A DNA stretch of 64,000 bases from the NCBI RefSeq assembly GCF_002355395.1, contig NZ_AP017315.1, positions 1,550,001 to 1,614,000 on the forward strand, given 5' to 3'. The stretch comes from Microcella alkaliphila (GTDB lineage: Bacteria; Actinomycetota; Actinomycetes; Actinomycetales; Microbacteriaceae). Positions within the stretch are counted from its first letter, which is position 1; each line of letters begins with the position of its first letter. A program made the translations under genes and the position numbers. Positions 13,533 to 54,445 of this stretch are shown one piece after another. The notes below the pieces were generated by a model that was not told the origin of the DNA, did no database searches, and saw only the letters and a list, made by a program, of their open reading frames with translations.

Positions 13533-13560
13533 ATATCCGATAATCTGCATTATGTCAGAT
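13533..13560. other. Candidate chromosome dimer resolution site dif
   Basis: A 28-bp site has the 11-6-11 dif layout: XerC arm ATATCCGATAA, spacer TCTGCA, XerD arm TTATGTCAGAT. The XerD arm shares TTATGT and a terminal AT with the E. coli dif arm, and the central CGATAAT...CATTATGTCA agrees with the actinobacterial dif pattern as I remember it. It is in a noncoding gap between an acetyltransferase and a decayed gene. If right, the replication terminus is here. Confidence 0.7.
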
Positions 13561-47150: not shown

Positions 47151-47206
47151 ACCGCGAGCGTACGAGCGACATCCGACACGGTTGTGTGATGCCGCGTTCC
47201 GGGTAG

Positions 47207-47248
47207 TGGGCCCTGAGGGATTCGAACCCCCGACATCCACGGTGAAAG
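47207..47248 (-). other. 3' half of a tRNA-Glu-like gene (candidate attL)
   Basis: On the minus strand a loop CTTTCAC (anticodon TTC) and its 3' stem strand CGTGG are followed by the variable loop ATGTC. Next come a T-arm of 5-bp stem and TTCGAAT loop, and the acceptor strand AGGGCCC with discriminator A. The 5' half is missing: no D-arm or GGGCCCT acceptor strand lies upstream, and the anticodon stem pairs only with wobbles. The 3' end faces the host, so this is the displaced host 3' segment; the complete tRNA should be at the far end of the prophage. Confidence 0.65.
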
Positions 47249-47294: not shown

Positions 47295-47519
47295 GTGGCG
47301 ACGATCATCGAGGTGGACGAGAACACCTTCATAGCGGGTGACCCGCCCGCTGAACCTCCTGTCGGTCAGCACTGGTGCACGTGGTGCGGCGGCGACGGGT
47401 TGGAGAATGACTGGGACGATGCGCTGACAATCTGCGGCGGATGCTCCGGCGCGTGCACCGAGAAATGCTTCGGGTGTGATGAGCACCCCTTCATCGGTCC
47501 TACTCGACGGCCTGAGTAA
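47295..47519 (+). CDS. Small cysteine-rich protein next to the integrase
   Basis: The predicted 74-residue protein starts with GTG. Its eight cysteines in CTWCGGDG and CGGCSGACTEKCFGC resemble DnaJ-type or rubredoxin-like zinc knuckles. It overlaps the integrase frame by about 40 nt if that begins at 47479. It could be an excisionase-like or regulatory factor, but nothing proves a function. Coding status rests on the regular CxxC spacing. Confidence 0.5.
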   Translation: MATIIEVDENTFIAGDPPAEPPVGQHWCTWCGGDGLENDWDDALTICGGCSGACTEKCFGCDEHPFIGPTRRPE

Positions 47520-48441
47520 CGTCATGTCCCAGTTCGGGGCTCTAGCGCGCGCCCGCGAAAGATGGTCACTTGATCTGATGGACGGTGACCTACTTCAGCA
47601 ATTCGCCGCCGTCCAACGCGCGCAAGGGCTGGCGGCGAACACAATACGCAATCGACACTCCATCATTCGCGGCCTCATTCGCGCCACCGGAAAGCAACTG
47701 CCCGACATCACGGTCACTGACCTGCGGCTCCGGTTAGGACGCGACGGCATCAGCGCTGGCACGAGACGAACAGAGCGCGCCGCGTTCGCGGCCGTGTTCG
47801 CCCACCTCGTAGAGGAAGGACTGCGCGACGATGACCCCACCCTGCGGCTCGCGAAGGTGCGCGCGCCGCGAGGAACACCGCGCCCATTCACCAGGGAGCA
47901 GATTGACCTAATGCTGAGGTCGGGCGCGTACCGGCGCACGCGTGCGATGATTCTGCTGGGCTACTTTCAGGGGTTCCGGGTCGCGTCGATCGCGGCAACG
48001 CACGGCGCTGATGTTGACTTCACCAGCGGCACGATCCGCACCGTCGCGAAGGGTTCGAAGGCGCTGGTGTTCCCGCTGCACCCTGTCGTTCGTACCCTGG
48101 CGGCCACAATGCCGGCGGACGGGTGGTGGTTTCCCGCCAGAGGTGGACGCGAAGGGCATGTGCGGCCAGGGTCGGTGACGGATGCGGTGCGAGATGCGAA
48201 AGTTCGGGCGGGCATCACCGATCCTCGACTGACGGCGCACTCTCTGCGACACTCTTTCGGTACCGATCTTGTCGACGCAGGTGTTGACATTCGTGTCATT
48301 GCCGAGCTGATGGGACACGAGTCGGTCGCGACGACTCAGATATACACGCAGGTAAGCGCCGACAGGAGACGTGAGGGCATCCACGCTCTCGAGGGAGTCC
48401 CCCTGCCGCAACGGTCTGGGCGATCGCAGATCGCCGCATAG
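47479..48441 (+). CDS. Tyrosine recombinase (phage integrase)
   Basis: This 320-residue integrase has an N-terminal SAM-like core-binding domain (about 40-130) and a catalytic domain with the expected residues: Arg in GFRVASI, Lys in AKGSKAL, HSLRHSFGT, and the final His/Tyr in LMGHESVATTQIYTQV. A later ATG at 47524 would avoid overlap with the cysteine-rich gene and is also possible. Position next to the tRNA fragment fits a role in integration. It converges on the phage late operon. Confidence 0.92.
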   Translation: MSTPSSVLLDGLSNVMSQFGALARARERWSLDLMDGDLLQQFAAVQRAQGLAANTIRNRHSIIRGLIRATGKQLPDITVTDLRLRLGRDGISAGTRRTERAAFAAVFAHLVEEGLRDDDPTLRLAKVRAPRGTPRPFTREQIDLMLRSGAYRRTRAMILLGYFQGFRVASIAATHGADVDFTSGTIRTVAKGSKALVFPLHPVVRTLAATMPADGWWFPARGGREGHVRPGSVTDAVRDAKVRAGITDPRLTAHSLRHSFGTDLVDAGVDIRVIAELMGHESVATTQIYTQVSADRRREGIHALEGVPLPQRSGRSQIAA

Positions 48442-49998: not shown

Positions 49999-50817
49999 TC
50001 ACCGGAATACGCGGCCGAAGGCGTCGCGGATCGCCTCAACCACAGCGCGGACCGTGTTGAGCGTGCTGCGGTCAGAGTCGGTGAATCCACCTGACGACGT
50101 CGTCGCCGCCGGCAGGCCGCGCTGGTATGCCTGGTGGACGATGCGTGCCGACTTCTGCATCTCGACGTAGACGCTGCGCGGCTCCTTCTGCTCATCCCCG
50201 AAGCCGCCAGGGTAATAGAGGCGGGCGAGGTCACGGGCCGTGTTCTGGTTCGTGATGACGATGTAGCCGCGCTCGAGGTCGGAGGGGCCGCGCAGTGACG
50301 GGTCGAAAAGGGACCACTCGAGCGTGGATTCGCCCACGCGGCGGATGAGCTTCGGCATGTCGTCCTCCTCAGGACTCGTGGTGGTGGTGACCGTCAGAGA
50401 TCCGACGTACTCGATGTGCCACGGCTCACCAACCCGGTCGCCGGTCGCGAGCGACCAGCCCAGACCCGGGCCGAGGTCGCGGACGGCGCGAAGCGCGGCC
50501 GCGGTGTAGCCGTACATGTCGATCGCGCGACCCCAGCCGTGGTTGGAGGTGCCGGGGGTGGCGGCCATCGGGAACGGGAGGGTGTTCCAGTAGTGCTGCT
50601 GGAGAGCGAGGTCTCGGTATCCCTCGGCGACGCCCATGCGCACGCCAGTGCGGGTCTGTACGGCGTCGCGAAGGCGGAACCATGCGGCGGCGGCCGCGGG
50701 GTGCGCGTACTGCTCTTTGCCGAACTGGATGCCGCCCGGCAGTGCGCCCCGGCCGATGGGGGTGAGCGCGCTCGTGGGGATGCGGCCGTTTTGGTGGCCG
50801 CCCCAGGCGAGACTCAT
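49999..50817 (-). CDS. Endolysin with M15 (VanY-like) peptidase domain
   Basis: The 272-residue protein has an N-terminal D-Ala-D-Ala carboxypeptidase-like zinc domain. Ligands are H93 and D100 in GTSNHGWGRAID, and H134 in EPWHIEYVG; EGYRDLALQQHYW is the preceding substrate helix. The C-terminal part (about 155-272) is not recognised and may bind the cell wall. It would cut peptidoglycan cross-links at lysis. It overlaps the fibre gene upstream by 1 nt. Confidence 0.9.
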   Translation of the reverse strand: MSLAWGGHQNGRIPTSALTPIGRGALPGGIQFGKEQYAHPAAAAAWFRLRDAVQTRTGVRMGVAEGYRDLALQQHYWNTLPFPMAATPGTSNHGWGRAIDMYGYTAAALRAVRDLGPGLGWSLATGDRVGEPWHIEYVGSLTVTTTTSPEEDDMPKLIRRVGESTLEWSLFDPSLRGPSDLERGYIVITNQNTARDLARLYYPGGFGDEQKEPRSVYVEMQKSARIVHQAYQRGLPAATTSSGGFTDSDRSTLNTVRAVVEAIRDAFGRVFR

Positions 50818-52139
50818 CAGCGCTCCTCAAGCGCCGCCAGCCGCTGTTCAAGGGCGGTGAGGCGGTCGTTGAGGGCGCGGGCGGCGATGATCGCGGCGAT
50901 GCCGAGCAGCTCGTAGTGGATGCCGTCGGGGCGACCCTTGTCGTCGTACCAGATGAACTCCCACAGGCCTGCGTCGTGGAGGTCCTCGGCGATCAAGCCG
51001 ATGTAGGTGGGCGGGTGGTCCTGCTCGTCCTTCCACTTCGTGCTGCGCGTCTCGTAGTACTTGGCCTCGAGCGAGAGGATCGCCTGCGGGTCGGTTTCTG
51101 CGCGGCGGATGGCCTTCTTGTAACGCTTCGAGGAGGAGGAGTAGCCGAGGGCGCCGTTCGTCGACATCCAGACGGCGCGGCGGGTGACCGCGCCGAGGTC
51201 GTTGTTGTAGGCGCCGTTGAAGATGCCGTTGCCGGTCGCGCCGATGCTGCCGCTGACGGTGCCGCCGCCGACGTCGTCGCCGAGGTTGAGGAACGGGATG
51301 CGAGCCTTCGCGAAGGTGCCTGAGGTGATGTTGCCGGCGGCGTGCGTGTGAGCTGCCGGCGGGAACGTCGACGGTCGGCTCGTGATCGAGTCCCACGGGT
51401 GCGTGTGAGCTGCCGGCGGGAACGTCGACGGTCGGCTCGTGATCGAGTCCCACGGGTGCGTGTGAGCTGCCGGCGGGAACGTCGACGGCTTGCCAGTGAT
51501 CGCAGCCCACGTGAGCTCCGGCGTGAGGGGACCGTAGGTGGTCCCGTTCCAGCCTTCCCAGACTCCGCTCTCGGTGTTGAAGCCGAACACGCCGACCGCG
51601 CCGGCGGGACGGTTCGAGTTGCCCCAGATCCCGACCTGCCGGCCGATAAAGCGGCGCACGTCGGTGACGTCGGCCGGGTTGATCGTCACGGCTGAGCCGG
51701 CGACGCGGACGATGCCAAGTGGGATCTCGTAGATGCCGCCACCAGACTGCGGCGTGGGGGCCTCGCCCGCGCCCGGGACGCCTTCGACGACCTCGAGCGT
51801 GACCGCGCGTGTCGATAGAGTGTGGCGGGCGACGACGAGGTCGAACCGCAGCGTGCCGGACGTGGCGGTGATGGCGAGTTGTTCCTGCGCGTCGACGACG
51901 AACGCCTGCCCGCGGATCGCGCCGAAGGCGGGATCTCCGCTGTCGATGTTCACGCGGACGAACATGCCGCCGACGTCGCCCGTGACTCGCAGAGCGTTGT
52001 CGAGAGGCGTGCCGGCGACGCCGTCGATGATGTACGAGAACAGCTGCCCGTACTGCTCGGCGGTCGTCTGGCCCGTTCCCGGGACCGGCTGGCCGTTCTC
52101 GTCGAAGTCGGGCGGCGTTGGCCAGTTCGTGATCCCCAT
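50817..52139 (-). CDS. Phage tail fibre with C-terminal endosialidase-type chaperone (peptidase S74)
   Basis: This 440-residue fibre protein has an N-terminal virion-attachment part and repeats with the core SRPSTFPPAAHTHPWDSIT (residues about 215-265). The C-terminal intramolecular chaperone begins near SSKRYKKAIRRAETDP and continues LIAEDLHDAGLWEFIWY to a trimeric coiled coil, LTALEQRLAALEER. S74 domains cleave themselves off after helping the fibre trimerise. The HTH-rich repeats may bind metal along the fibre axis. Confidence 0.88.
   Translation of the reverse strand: MGITNWPTPPDFDENGQPVPGTGQTTAEQYGQLFSYIIDGVAGTPLDNALRVTGDVGGMFVRVNIDSGDPAFGAIRGQAFVVDAQEQLAITATSGTLRFDLVVARHTLSTRAVTLEVVEGVPGAGEAPTPQSGGGIYEIPLGIVRVAGSAVTINPADVTDVRRFIGRQVGIWGNSNRPAGAVGVFGFNTESGVWEGWNGTTYGPLTPELTWAAITGKPSTFPPAAHTHPWDSITSRPSTFPPAAHTHPWDSITSRPSTFPPAAHTHAAGNITSGTFAKARIPFLNLGDDVGGGTVSGSIGATGNGIFNGAYNNDLGAVTRRAVWMSTNGALGYSSSSKRYKKAIRRAETDPQAILSLEAKYYETRSTKWKDEQDHPPTYIGLIAEDLHDAGLWEFIWYDDKGRPDGIHYELLGIAAIIAARALNDRLTALEQRLAALEER
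51344..51513 (-). repeat. Tandem 57-bp repeats inside the tail fibre gene
   Basis: Copies start at 51344, 51401 and 51458, a constant period of 57 bp (19 codons). The first two are almost identical and the third is diverged. The unit encodes a PPAAHTH-containing segment, so copy number would set the length of one fibre shaft section. Confidence 0.85.
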
Positions 52140-52447: not shown

Positions 52448-52476
52448 TGGGGCTCCTGATATTCGATCGAACAGAA

Positions 52477-52498
52477 TTGCGGCTATCGGCACGAAAAC
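52477..52498 (+). repeat. Inverted repeat arm, left (fibre cassette)
   Basis: TTGCGGCTATCGGC (52477-52490), then one mismatch and CGAAAAC (52492-52498). The same 14 + 7 bases recur in inverse orientation at 53025-53046; weaker similarity continues inward for about 30 bp. Confidence 0.8.
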
Positions 52499-52736
52499 CG
52501 GCGCGAAGACGCACACGCTGACTGAAGGTCAACTGCCGTCGCACCGCCACGAAGGGATATTCGTCGACGCTGTACAGCTTCGATGGGAGGTGCAGGGTCA
52601 ATCAGGCTCCAACATGGCGATCCTGCGCCCCGGGACAGCGACGAACCCGGTCAGGACTGGCTTTGCTGGAGGCGGGCAGCCGCACAGCATCGTCCAGCCG
52701 AGCTTCGTGTGCCGGTACGTGATCCGGGCCGCCTAA
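52477..52736 (+). other. Headless, opposite-strand alternative C-terminus for the tail fibre
   Basis: Read on the + strand, this encodes AAIGTKTGAKTHTLTEGQLPS and, further on, HSIVQPSFVCRYVIRAA before a stop at 52734-52736. It parallels the end of the minus-strand fibre (AAIGAKTGAKTHSLTESEMPA ... NNVQPSFVCRYVIRAA), while the middle differs completely. It has no start codon, ribosome site or N-terminal part of its own. The two stops overlap tail to tail. It can be expressed only if the segment inverts. Confidence 0.75.
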
Positions 52737-54445
52737 GCAGCGCGGATGACATAGCGGCAGACAAACGACGGCTGCACATTGTTGTGCGCCGCGCCGTTGC
52801 CTTGATTCTGCGCAACCAGATTCGAGGGGCCGCTTGAGTCGAAGGCGGCGACCTGGTGAGTAAAGCGTCCACCGGTGCCGCCCATCACAGCCGACAAGCC
52901 ATTGTTGCTTGGTCCTGCGGTGGCAGAAGACGGCTGCGCAGTGACAACCAGACTTAGTGTGCCCGTGACGTTGTGCGCGTGCGCCGGCATCTCCGACTCG
53001 GTCAGCGAATGCGTCTTGGCACCCGTTTTCGCGCCGATAGCCGCAAATATGTCTGAACCGCCCTGATTCACGTACACCCGTTCCCGAGTGTCCGGCACAG
53101 CGAACGTCGTCAGACCGTTCCCACCGTGGAAGTTCGGGATGCCGTAGACGTTTGCGTAGTGCGCGGCGAGCGCCGGGTAGTCGGCAATGTTGTAGACGGT
53201 GCCATCGGGGAGCAGGAAGCCGGCGGGTACGGCGCTCGTGGACCATTCGCCGGGCAGGTGGGCACCCACGGGGATGGTCGTTGCTGCGGCGACGGCGGCC
53301 GCGCTGAGCTCGAGCTGCCGGATCCGCTTGTCTTGCTGCTCCACCTTGCGCGCCATTCGGGCTGTGAAGTTGAACCCGGTCGGCTCTCCGACGCGAGCGC
53401 GGACGAAGTCACCGTCGGGGCCGACGTAACGCGCGACCTGCGTGACGATCGCCGCGGTGGGCTGGCCGTCGACGATCACGGTGACGAGATCTCCGAGACC
53501 CCAGTCGACGCCGTACGCCATCGACGGTGCGTCTGCGGGGACGACATCGATGCTGGTCTCTTCGCCATTCTCGGCGAGCGTCTCGAGGCCGGCCTGCTCG
53601 AGCTCGTCTTCCTCGTCGGTGTCGCGGCGGTCCTGAAAGAGTTCCCAGCGCATGCCCCACTCTTCAGCCTGCTGCAGCGAGGCATCGGTGGTGATAACCT
53701 TGATCGTGCGGTCTGCGCCGGAACCTTTGCCGCCGACGAATAGGTGGGTGGCGTTCGGGCCCTGGTAGCCCCAGCTTGCCTTGTCGATCATTTCGTTCGC
53801 GATCGACATCTTGATCTCGTCGCGACGGTCGGTCGGTTCGTAGACATCGAAGCGGAGCATCGGCTGGCCGTCGATCTCGGTTTGAGCGACGCGGAACCCG
53901 AGGCCGCTATTGGTGCCGATGCGCTGCAGGATCTCGAGCAGCGACTGGAAGCGTGCCGACTCAGGCAAGACGTCGCCTCGGCCGAGGTCGGGTGCGACGT
54001 CGAGCCAGGGATAGCTGCGCTCGGGCGTCGCGAGGTCGCCAGCGTTGGCCCGGACGAACTCTTTCATGATCGTCTCGGCGGGACCGTTCCGACGGTCGCG
54101 GTCCTGCGTCTGCGCGTTGGGCGCGTTCGCGGGGTCGGGCAGGGCGGATGTCGCGGCGAGGATGACAGCGTCGTCGACGCCGCTGATGACCCAGGTGCCC
54201 TTCGGGTCGGCCGGGTCGGTGGACAGGATCGCGCGCCGCGTGCGGCCAGAGAACACTTGGCTGCCGTCGCGGATGATGATGCCGGAACCTTTGCCGCGCA
54301 GCACGGGGAGGAGCGGGTGCTCTGCGGGTAGTTTCAGCTCCCACGCGCCGACGTCGCGGAAGGTCTCGACGAACATGATGTCGAGCTGGTCGCGGTCGAT
54401 TTGCCCTTCCCGCTCGAACTCCGCGTTGCGCACTTCGACGATCAT
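52733..54445 (-). CDS. Phage tail hub/fibre protein: Gp37-like N-terminus with tail-collar C-terminus
   Basis: This 570-residue protein has an N-terminal region like the siphovirus ReqiPepy6 Gp37/tail-associated family (MIVEVRNAEFEREGQID, GTWVISGVDDAVILAA, up to about 370). A coiled-coil linker (ARKVEQQDKRIRQLELSA) follows, then a phage tail-collar domain (PAGFLLPDGTVYNIADYPAL) and a tip with PAHAHNVTG and QPSFVCRYVIRAA. The tip probably contacts the host receptor. The last 100 residues are in a segment bounded by inverted repeats. The start overlaps the Dit-like gene (ATGA). Confidence 0.85.
   Translation of the reverse strand: MIVEVRNAEFEREGQIDRDQLDIMFVETFRDVGAWELKLPAEHPLLPVLRGKGSGIIIRDGSQVFSGRTRRAILSTDPADPKGTWVISGVDDAVILAATSALPDPANAPNAQTQDRDRRNGPAETIMKEFVRANAGDLATPERSYPWLDVAPDLGRGDVLPESARFQSLLEILQRIGTNSGLGFRVAQTEIDGQPMLRFDVYEPTDRRDEIKMSIANEMIDKASWGYQGPNATHLFVGGKGSGADRTIKVITTDASLQQAEEWGMRWELFQDRRDTDEEDELEQAGLETLAENGEETSIDVVPADAPSMAYGVDWGLGDLVTVIVDGQPTAAIVTQVARYVGPDGDFVRARVGEPTGFNFTARMARKVEQQDKRIRQLELSAAAVAAATTIPVGAHLPGEWSTSAVPAGFLLPDGTVYNIADYPALAAHYANVYGIPNFHGGNGLTTFAVPDTRERVYVNQGGSDIFAAIGAKTGAKTHSLTESEMPAHAHNVTGTLSLVVTAQPSSATAGPSNNGLSAVMGGTGGRFTHQVAAFDSSGPSNLVAQNQGNGAAHNNVQPSFVCRYVIRAA
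53025..53046 (-). repeat. Inverted repeat arm, right (fibre cassette)
   Basis: On the minus strand this is TTGCGGCTATCGGC (53046 to 53033), one mismatch, then CGAAAAC. It lies within the fibre coding frame, and the codon phase is the same as in the left arm (tt-gcg-gct-atc-ggc). Confidence 0.8.

Follow-up and report, generated by a model that had tools for sequence, protein, structure and literature searches.

Two alternative tail fibre tips between dif-like sites in a Microcella alkaliphila prophage: a predicted inversion cassette probably worked by host XerC/XerD

The 64,000-nucleotide stretch of the Microcella alkaliphila chromosome analyzed here (the window) carries, within a prophage, a cassette in which two alternative ends of one tail fibre lie tail to tail inside inverted repeats and in the same codon phase (Table 1). 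This arrangement raises the question of whether the fibre can exchange its tip in frame by inversion and, if so, which recombinase would carry out the exchange. Our reading is that the cassette is probably an in-frame, two-state tail-tip inverter worked by the XerC/XerD pair of the host.

Table 1. Positions of the features discussed, numbered within the window unless another locus is named.
Feature	Position	Strand	Description
Predicted invertible segment	52477..53046	.	570 bp, from left to right 6-bp centre; basis: inverted repeat and dif-like sites
Tail fibre gene, 582 aa	52733..54481	-	Sipho_Gp37 (residues 15-366), Collar (413-469); C-terminal end is tip A
Tip A, currently fused to fibre body	52733..53040	-	last ~100 residues of the fibre
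Tip B, silent	52483..52736	+	convergent with tip A, stop codons overlapping
Small downstream gene, about 80 aa	52205..52450	-	ribosome site and start outside the arms; gene at the same place in G009
Left dif-like site, 11-6-11	52466..52493	-	CGTGCCGATAG CCGCAA TTCTGTTCGAT; 6.7 bits, rank 3 in 100 kb
Right dif-like site, 11-6-11	53030..53057	+	CGCGCCGATAG CCGCAA ATATGTCTGAA; 14.1 bits, second to chromosomal dif in 100 kb
Chromosomal dif	13533..13560	+	ATATCCGATAA TCTGCA TTATGTCAGAT
attL	47205..47247	.	attR at 83833-83875, past the window end, in tRNA-Val
Phage integrase, 321 aa, arm-less tyrosine recombinase	47476..48441	+	just inside attL; the prophage's sole PF00589 match; alternative candidate for the recombinase
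Five-tip array of G152	L094 9093-11395 (G152:C1, about 484.1-486.4 kb)		one tip expressed, three in tandem, one inverted; centre TGGTGA throughout

A preliminary description of the locus had proposed a second tip on the opposite strand, with the same start and end as the expressed tip and a different centre, and both reading frames bear this out: tips A and B have in common the start AAIG(A/T)KTGAKTH(S/T)LTE and the last 14 residues (VQPSFVCRYVIRAA), are unlike in their centres and overlap at their stop codons, with the frame of tip B open to 52736 (+). The inverted-repeat arms that it described, with 14 identical bases, one mismatch and 7 more identical bases (TTGCGGCTATCGGC(A/G)CGAAAAC), were recovered as well; an inverted match of 22 nt with one mismatch was not equalled when the 3-kb region was shuffled 300 times (maximum 21, mean 13.6), and complementarity between the arms amounts to 77% across 74 nt. 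Codon phase is indeed equal in both arms (GCG GCT ATC GGC), and the coordinates place the fibre body and the ribosome site of the small downstream gene outside of them, as had been claimed. Decay of the plus-strand tip, named at the time as a sign against switching, was not seen, since the tip B frame is the sole stop-free frame of six over 258 bases and its codon-position composition is coding-like; PHROG gave four matches for the tip B ORF (52449-52736), the best to a tail protein (E 1.2e-9), and Pfam gave none. The claim that tip B lacks its own start codon is correct for the beginning of the tip, the first in-frame starts inside the cassette (GTG 52590 and ATG 52614) both lying well into the centre, but not for the frame as a whole, which is open upstream as far as GTG 51822, antisense to other genes. 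The small downstream gene found no match in phages at E 1e-3 and neither a PHROG nor a Pfam match. In the neighboring gene (50817-52139), encoding a 440-aa protein, a unit of about 57 bp (STFPPAAHTH) occurs three times in tandem at 51338-51510; the C-terminal part of this protein, which has no Pfam match, we take to resemble a fibre chaperone domain.

The same plan was found in two more prophages, the three together spanning two genera. In Microcella pacifica KN1116 (G009), a member of the same genus as the present host, a 36.4-kb prophage in tRNA-Met has a different fibre body and one tip pair of diverged sequence; the tips lie tail to tail with a stop overlap as in the window, a small gene sits at the same downstream place, and a stop (L006 977-979) immediately beyond the 28-bp site closes the frame of the silent tip, whose first in-frame start (L006 1085) lies well into the tip. 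Aurantimicrobium minutum (G152) carries in tRNA-His a prophage with a shufflon-like array of five tips and five dif-like sites, and ahead of each tip stands a repeat, about 17 bp long, that takes the dif form (ATAA, six bases, TTATGT) and is altered in some copies; here the sites occupy another place in the protein and have the opposite polarity, with the XerC-side half in the body and the XerD-side half in the tip. Among 420 fetched loci (2.52 Mb, many overlapping), convergent frames with a common C-terminus (at least 9 of 14 residues) occurred at 36 loci, all of them from these three prophages, which also account for the 3 of 82 IMG/VR loci with paired sites in one search (best 80 of 200 matches). 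A scan of the genome collection returned Microcella pacifica and one alphaproteobacterial MAG, the latter without the plan, and the loci fetched for part of the extra dif-like matches in 22 genomes held no tip cassette. A related fibre was present in 2 of 26 genomes of the genus, the fibre end was matched in 20 of 398 genomes of the family, and the tip profile in 13 of 396 of the order; part of these matches were taken up among the loci. Phage records gave 298 matches to the fibre end and 149 to tip B; among the matches listed (60 of the 298 and 40 of the 149), tip B stood at one place per record, so that none of them showed two tips at that sensitivity. The search of relatives for the opposite orientation, suggested in the preliminary description, found none: the IMG/VR and genome-collection copies had the same orientation and, along the stretches compared, 100% identity with the three prophages, and are thus presumably the same isolates (NZ_VIKT02000004.1 is 100% identical to G009 across the 14,471 bases compared).

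What the preliminary description did not contain is that the arms are dif-like; its bounds, 52477 and 53046, coincide with the outer limits of two 6-bp centres. Each arm consists of two 11-bp halves around such a centre that match dif, the XerD-side halves being degenerate. In the left site, the XerC-side arm (52483-52493) lies inside the cassette, the centre at 52477-52482 and the XerD-side arm (52466-52476) outside; in the right site, the XerC-side arm (53030-53040) is likewise inside, the centre is at 53041-53046, and the XerD-side arm (53047-53057) belongs to the fibre body, outside the cassette. The dif pattern, with up to 1 mismatch, was found in 390 of 398 genomes of the family, the three hosts included, and a dif matrix was made from 27 distinct sequences out of 33 sites, with the three hosts' own dif in, the cassette sites out and the centre masked. 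On both strands of 100 kb of this genome (G000), the matrix ranked dif first with 41.2 bits, followed by the right and left arms (Table 1) and then a next match of 3.7 bits; in 60 kb of G009 the arms took ranks 1 and 3 with a chance match of 8.7 bits between them, and ranks 1, 2, 3, 5 and 9 in 37 kb of G152 went to the five sites of the array. Column-permuted matrices placed the sites as high in 2 of 1000 trials for G000 and in 0 of 1000 for both G009 and G152. Taken singly, the site scores are modest, as 20 shuffles of 100 kb contained 8 matches of at least 6.7 bits, none of them reaching 14.1, and the best single sites in 77 control loci reached 16.1 bits, with several at 12.6. Pairs were also scanned for, requiring inverted orientation, equal centres, 5 bits or more for each site and a spacing of 150-3000 bases. 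G000 and G009 have one such pair each; the remaining fetched loci, 1,648,496 bases that include some near-duplicates, have none, and neither do 40 shuffles of 100 kb. The centres agree within each prophage (CCGCAA/CCGCAA in G000, TGGCGA/TGGCGA in G009 and TGGTGA five times in G152), and all of them differ from the centres of the hosts' own dif (TCTGCA, TGCACA and TACACA, respectively).

Four features bear on how these results should be read: 1) the XerC-side half overlaps codons of the conserved AIG motif; 2) the arms are repeats of each other and hence do not constitute independent evidence; 3) the repeat itself partly accounts for the identity of the centres; and 4) the two Microcella cassettes are homologous. 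The most independent support for dif-likeness is the array of G152. Judged by their sequence, the cassette sites have the make-up of a Xer pair, and action of XerC/XerD upon them is what we would predict. Chromosomal dif is about 34 kb away from the prophage end and about 39 kb away from the cassette. In at least 6 genomes of genus g17 (G121, G182, G231, G343, G275 and G312), a second, imperfect dif-like site was seen about 51 bp from dif on the opposite strand. Two other loci, L328 (G051:C3) and L319 (G400:C1), have neighboring pairs of dif-like sites with different centres, which may be modules comparable to the Xer sites on plasmids of Acinetobacter.

With respect to the enzyme, the host genome is complete (2.70 Mb), and the prophage covers 36.7 kb, flanked by a 43-bp att repeat with one mismatch, the tRNA-Val at attR being intact. 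The preliminary description had seen no invertase in the window and had proposed inspecting the rest of the prophage; no dedicated invertase was found, but a tyrosine integrase is present (Table 1) and is the only recombinase match of the entire prophage. Similarly, the only PF00589 match in each of the three prophages is its integrase, which is short and arm-less in G000 and G009, and of another type, with 399 aa, in G152. A serine invertase was rejected, no PF00239 match having been obtained in the whole G000 genome; none was obtained in G152 either, and the one match in G009 lies outside the prophage. The att sites of the integrase were also considered as the origin of the arms and rejected, the sequences being dissimilar. 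All three hosts have XerC-like and XerD-like proteins by best NCBIfam model, with those of G000 falling short of the XerD and XerC equivalog cut-offs (322.7 vs. 329.6 and 309.1 vs. 335.15, respectively). The finding that G152 has dif-like sites despite an integrase of another type points to a common host enzyme, and a host enzyme pair common to all three, acting at dif-like sites, is the best fit. We surmise that XerC/XerD of the host would bind the dif-like sites at the ends of the 570-bp segment, that strand exchange between them would invert the segment because the 6-bp centres are identical, and that, with both sites in the same codon phase, the constant body would then be read into the other tip, leaving the old tip as the silent copy, tail to tail with it; recombination with dif would be prevented by the centre, which is CCGCAA here and TCTGCA in dif. 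We infer that inversion occurs, that XerC/XerD perform it and that the tips bind different receptors. Inversion by XerC/XerD is not a given, since inverted cer sites are described as failing to recombine, owing to accessory proteins (PMC5357621).

By its proximity, the arm-less integrase of the phage is a candidate for inverting the cassette besides integrating the phage, a dual role that we regard as unlikely. It is the only PF00589 or PF00239 match in the prophage, Pfam matches its catalytic domain only, and its best PDB sequence match is Gp33 (5vfz_A, 162.8 bits), which we take to be the Brujita integrase. The latter, going by the title of the 2016 paper of Lunt and Hatfull, is reportedly arm-less, directionless and promiscuous, and this speaks for a second role, as does the similar arm-less integrase in G009. 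In addition, the Bifidobacterium prophages with an orphan inversion of about 500 bp have a repressor gene at one att site and the integrase at the other, as described in PMC6109161, a layout that this prophage may share. Here, a plus-strand ORF (83498-83875, past the window end) terminates inside attR, which, with the integrase just inside attL, would give the circular phage the order ORF, attP, integrase, like that of the integration-dependent immunity systems described in the same source (PMC6109161); the arm-less integrase of Brujita-type integration-dependent immunity is also found in this prophage. Against a role of the integrase in inversion, it is dif that the arms resemble and not the four att regions of G000 and G009, whose scores with the dif matrix range from -15.7 to -27.1 bits, and the dif-like sites of G152 accompany the 399-aa integrase.

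We consider it quite improbable that the cassette is a frozen relic, or an ordinary mosaic exchange in which general recombination moves tip modules and the inverted copy no longer flips. Neither inverted molecules nor independent isolates were seen among the database copies, which counts against host Xer inversion, and the missing second orientation is what a relic would leave. Relatives also exchange tips between different bodies. Three protein searches listed 10, 32 and 120 proteins, of which 33, mostly top-ranked, were compared (P0001-P0004, P0011-P0033 and P0043-P0048), and 32 of the 33 could be divided at the cassette site. Bodies were at least 82% identical in 19 pairs, with tips at most 58% identical in 18 of them, exemplified by P0015/P0016 (body 146/147 residues identical, tip 35/79 aligned) and by P0001/P0003, which includes the window's own fibre (body 441/470, tip 32/86); the tip of P0003 differs from tip B. 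The nineteenth pair, P0044/P0045, is alike in body and tip, and P0012/P0022 represents the reverse case, with a tip 94% common and a body 63% common. These protein comparisons show exchange of tips at the cassette site in nature, which alone does not imply inversion, and general recombination and fast tip change could contribute to the tip differences. A relic, however, has no need of dif-like ends; nor does it sit well with silent tips that are open in three prophages and coding-like in the window, with a codon phase that has been kept, or with sites that are identical within each genome and different between genomes. Together, the plan of G009, the array of G152, the dif-like arms with identical centres and the near-identical bodies of relatives with other tips support the in-frame tip-swapping cassette that had been proposed at the outset. 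Finally, that the arms are recombined by a trans-acting invertase encoded elsewhere, of the sort suggested for the second Bifidobacterium inversion, seems very improbable, as the further tyrosine recombinases that could be invoked, at 1190389 in G000 and several in G009 (outside the prophage), have no counterpart in G152, which has the array yet just three PF00589 matches (XerC-like, XerD-like and the phage integrase) and no PF00239 match.

The earlier comparison with the Mu G segment stands for the plan and fails for the enzyme, this genome having no serine recombinase match; the Mu G segment is also larger, with its invertase adjoining. Like Mu G, P1 C and p15B Min as described in PMC6109161, the cassette has a constant fibre part, alternative ends on opposite strands and a layout for in-frame inversion, but those systems use a serine invertase, and the serine recombinase gene of Gin/Cin/Min has no PF00239 counterpart in this whole genome. 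With the Rin shufflon of Bifidobacterium and Eggerthella lenta prophages, for which tyrosine-type recombination has been inferred, the cassette has in common swappable C-terminal tips of a receptor-binding protein behind a constant part, bounded by repeated sites, and the five tips of G152 resemble it further (PMC6109161; PMC8778435). In contrast, Rin is described with its own recombinase gene adjoining the array and with asymmetric repeats of 11 bp or 8 bp (PMC6109161; PMC8778435), whereas here the sites are dif-like, no recombinase adjoins them, and the sole PF00589 match of the prophage adjoins attL. The cassette is therefore like Mu G and Rin in plan and is assigned to neither, the dedicated recombinase being missing. 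Along with Rin, the closest published case that we found is the second bifidophage inversion (Bb423phi2/689b-1; Mavrich et al. 2018, PMC6109161), the orphan event of about 500 bp mentioned above, which took place in an actinobacterial prophage integrated in a tRNA gene, with no adjoining recombinase in the account given there and with the recombinase left open. It differs in its 8-bp crossover (CAGGGTTA), by eye not dif-like, and in that inversion was seen between two strains, whereas database copies of the Microcella cassette are in one orientation (PMC6109161). In phiCh1/phiH1, two tail fibre genes, of which the silent one also has no start codon, are switched through inverted repeats by a tyrosine recombinase, but this is an archaeal virus with an XerD-type recombinase gene inside the invertible region (PMC6210493). 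The pXerC/D sites of Acinetobacter plasmids agree with the cassette in size (28 bp), in identical 6-bp centres and in opposite orientation, and such pairs invert DNA, which is attributed to XerC/XerD; they are plasmid modules and are not described as swapping protein tips in frame (PMC9947245). CTXphi, VGJphi and TLCphi likewise have a phage dif-like site and borrow host XerC/XerD, but for integration at dif rather than for switching of a virion protein (PMC5357621).

Among the matches listed in a search of the open-access literature, we found no report of Xer-driven tail-tip switching. We are inclined to the broader view that temperate actinobacterial phages outsource tail-tip switching to the dimer-resolution machinery of the host, by way of dif-like sites with private centres, in inversion cassettes and 'Xer shufflons' with no phage-coded invertase. 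If this is true, searches based on invertases would miss such switches, and paired dif-like sites with matching private centres would reveal them; orphan inversion loci such as those of Bifidobacterium prophages, with a crossover not dif-like in appearance, would be worth re-examining. It would also mean that phages diversify their receptor-binding tips without an invertase gene, by means of an enzyme pair common to most bacteria, and that phage tip switching is linked to a housekeeping system tied to cell division.
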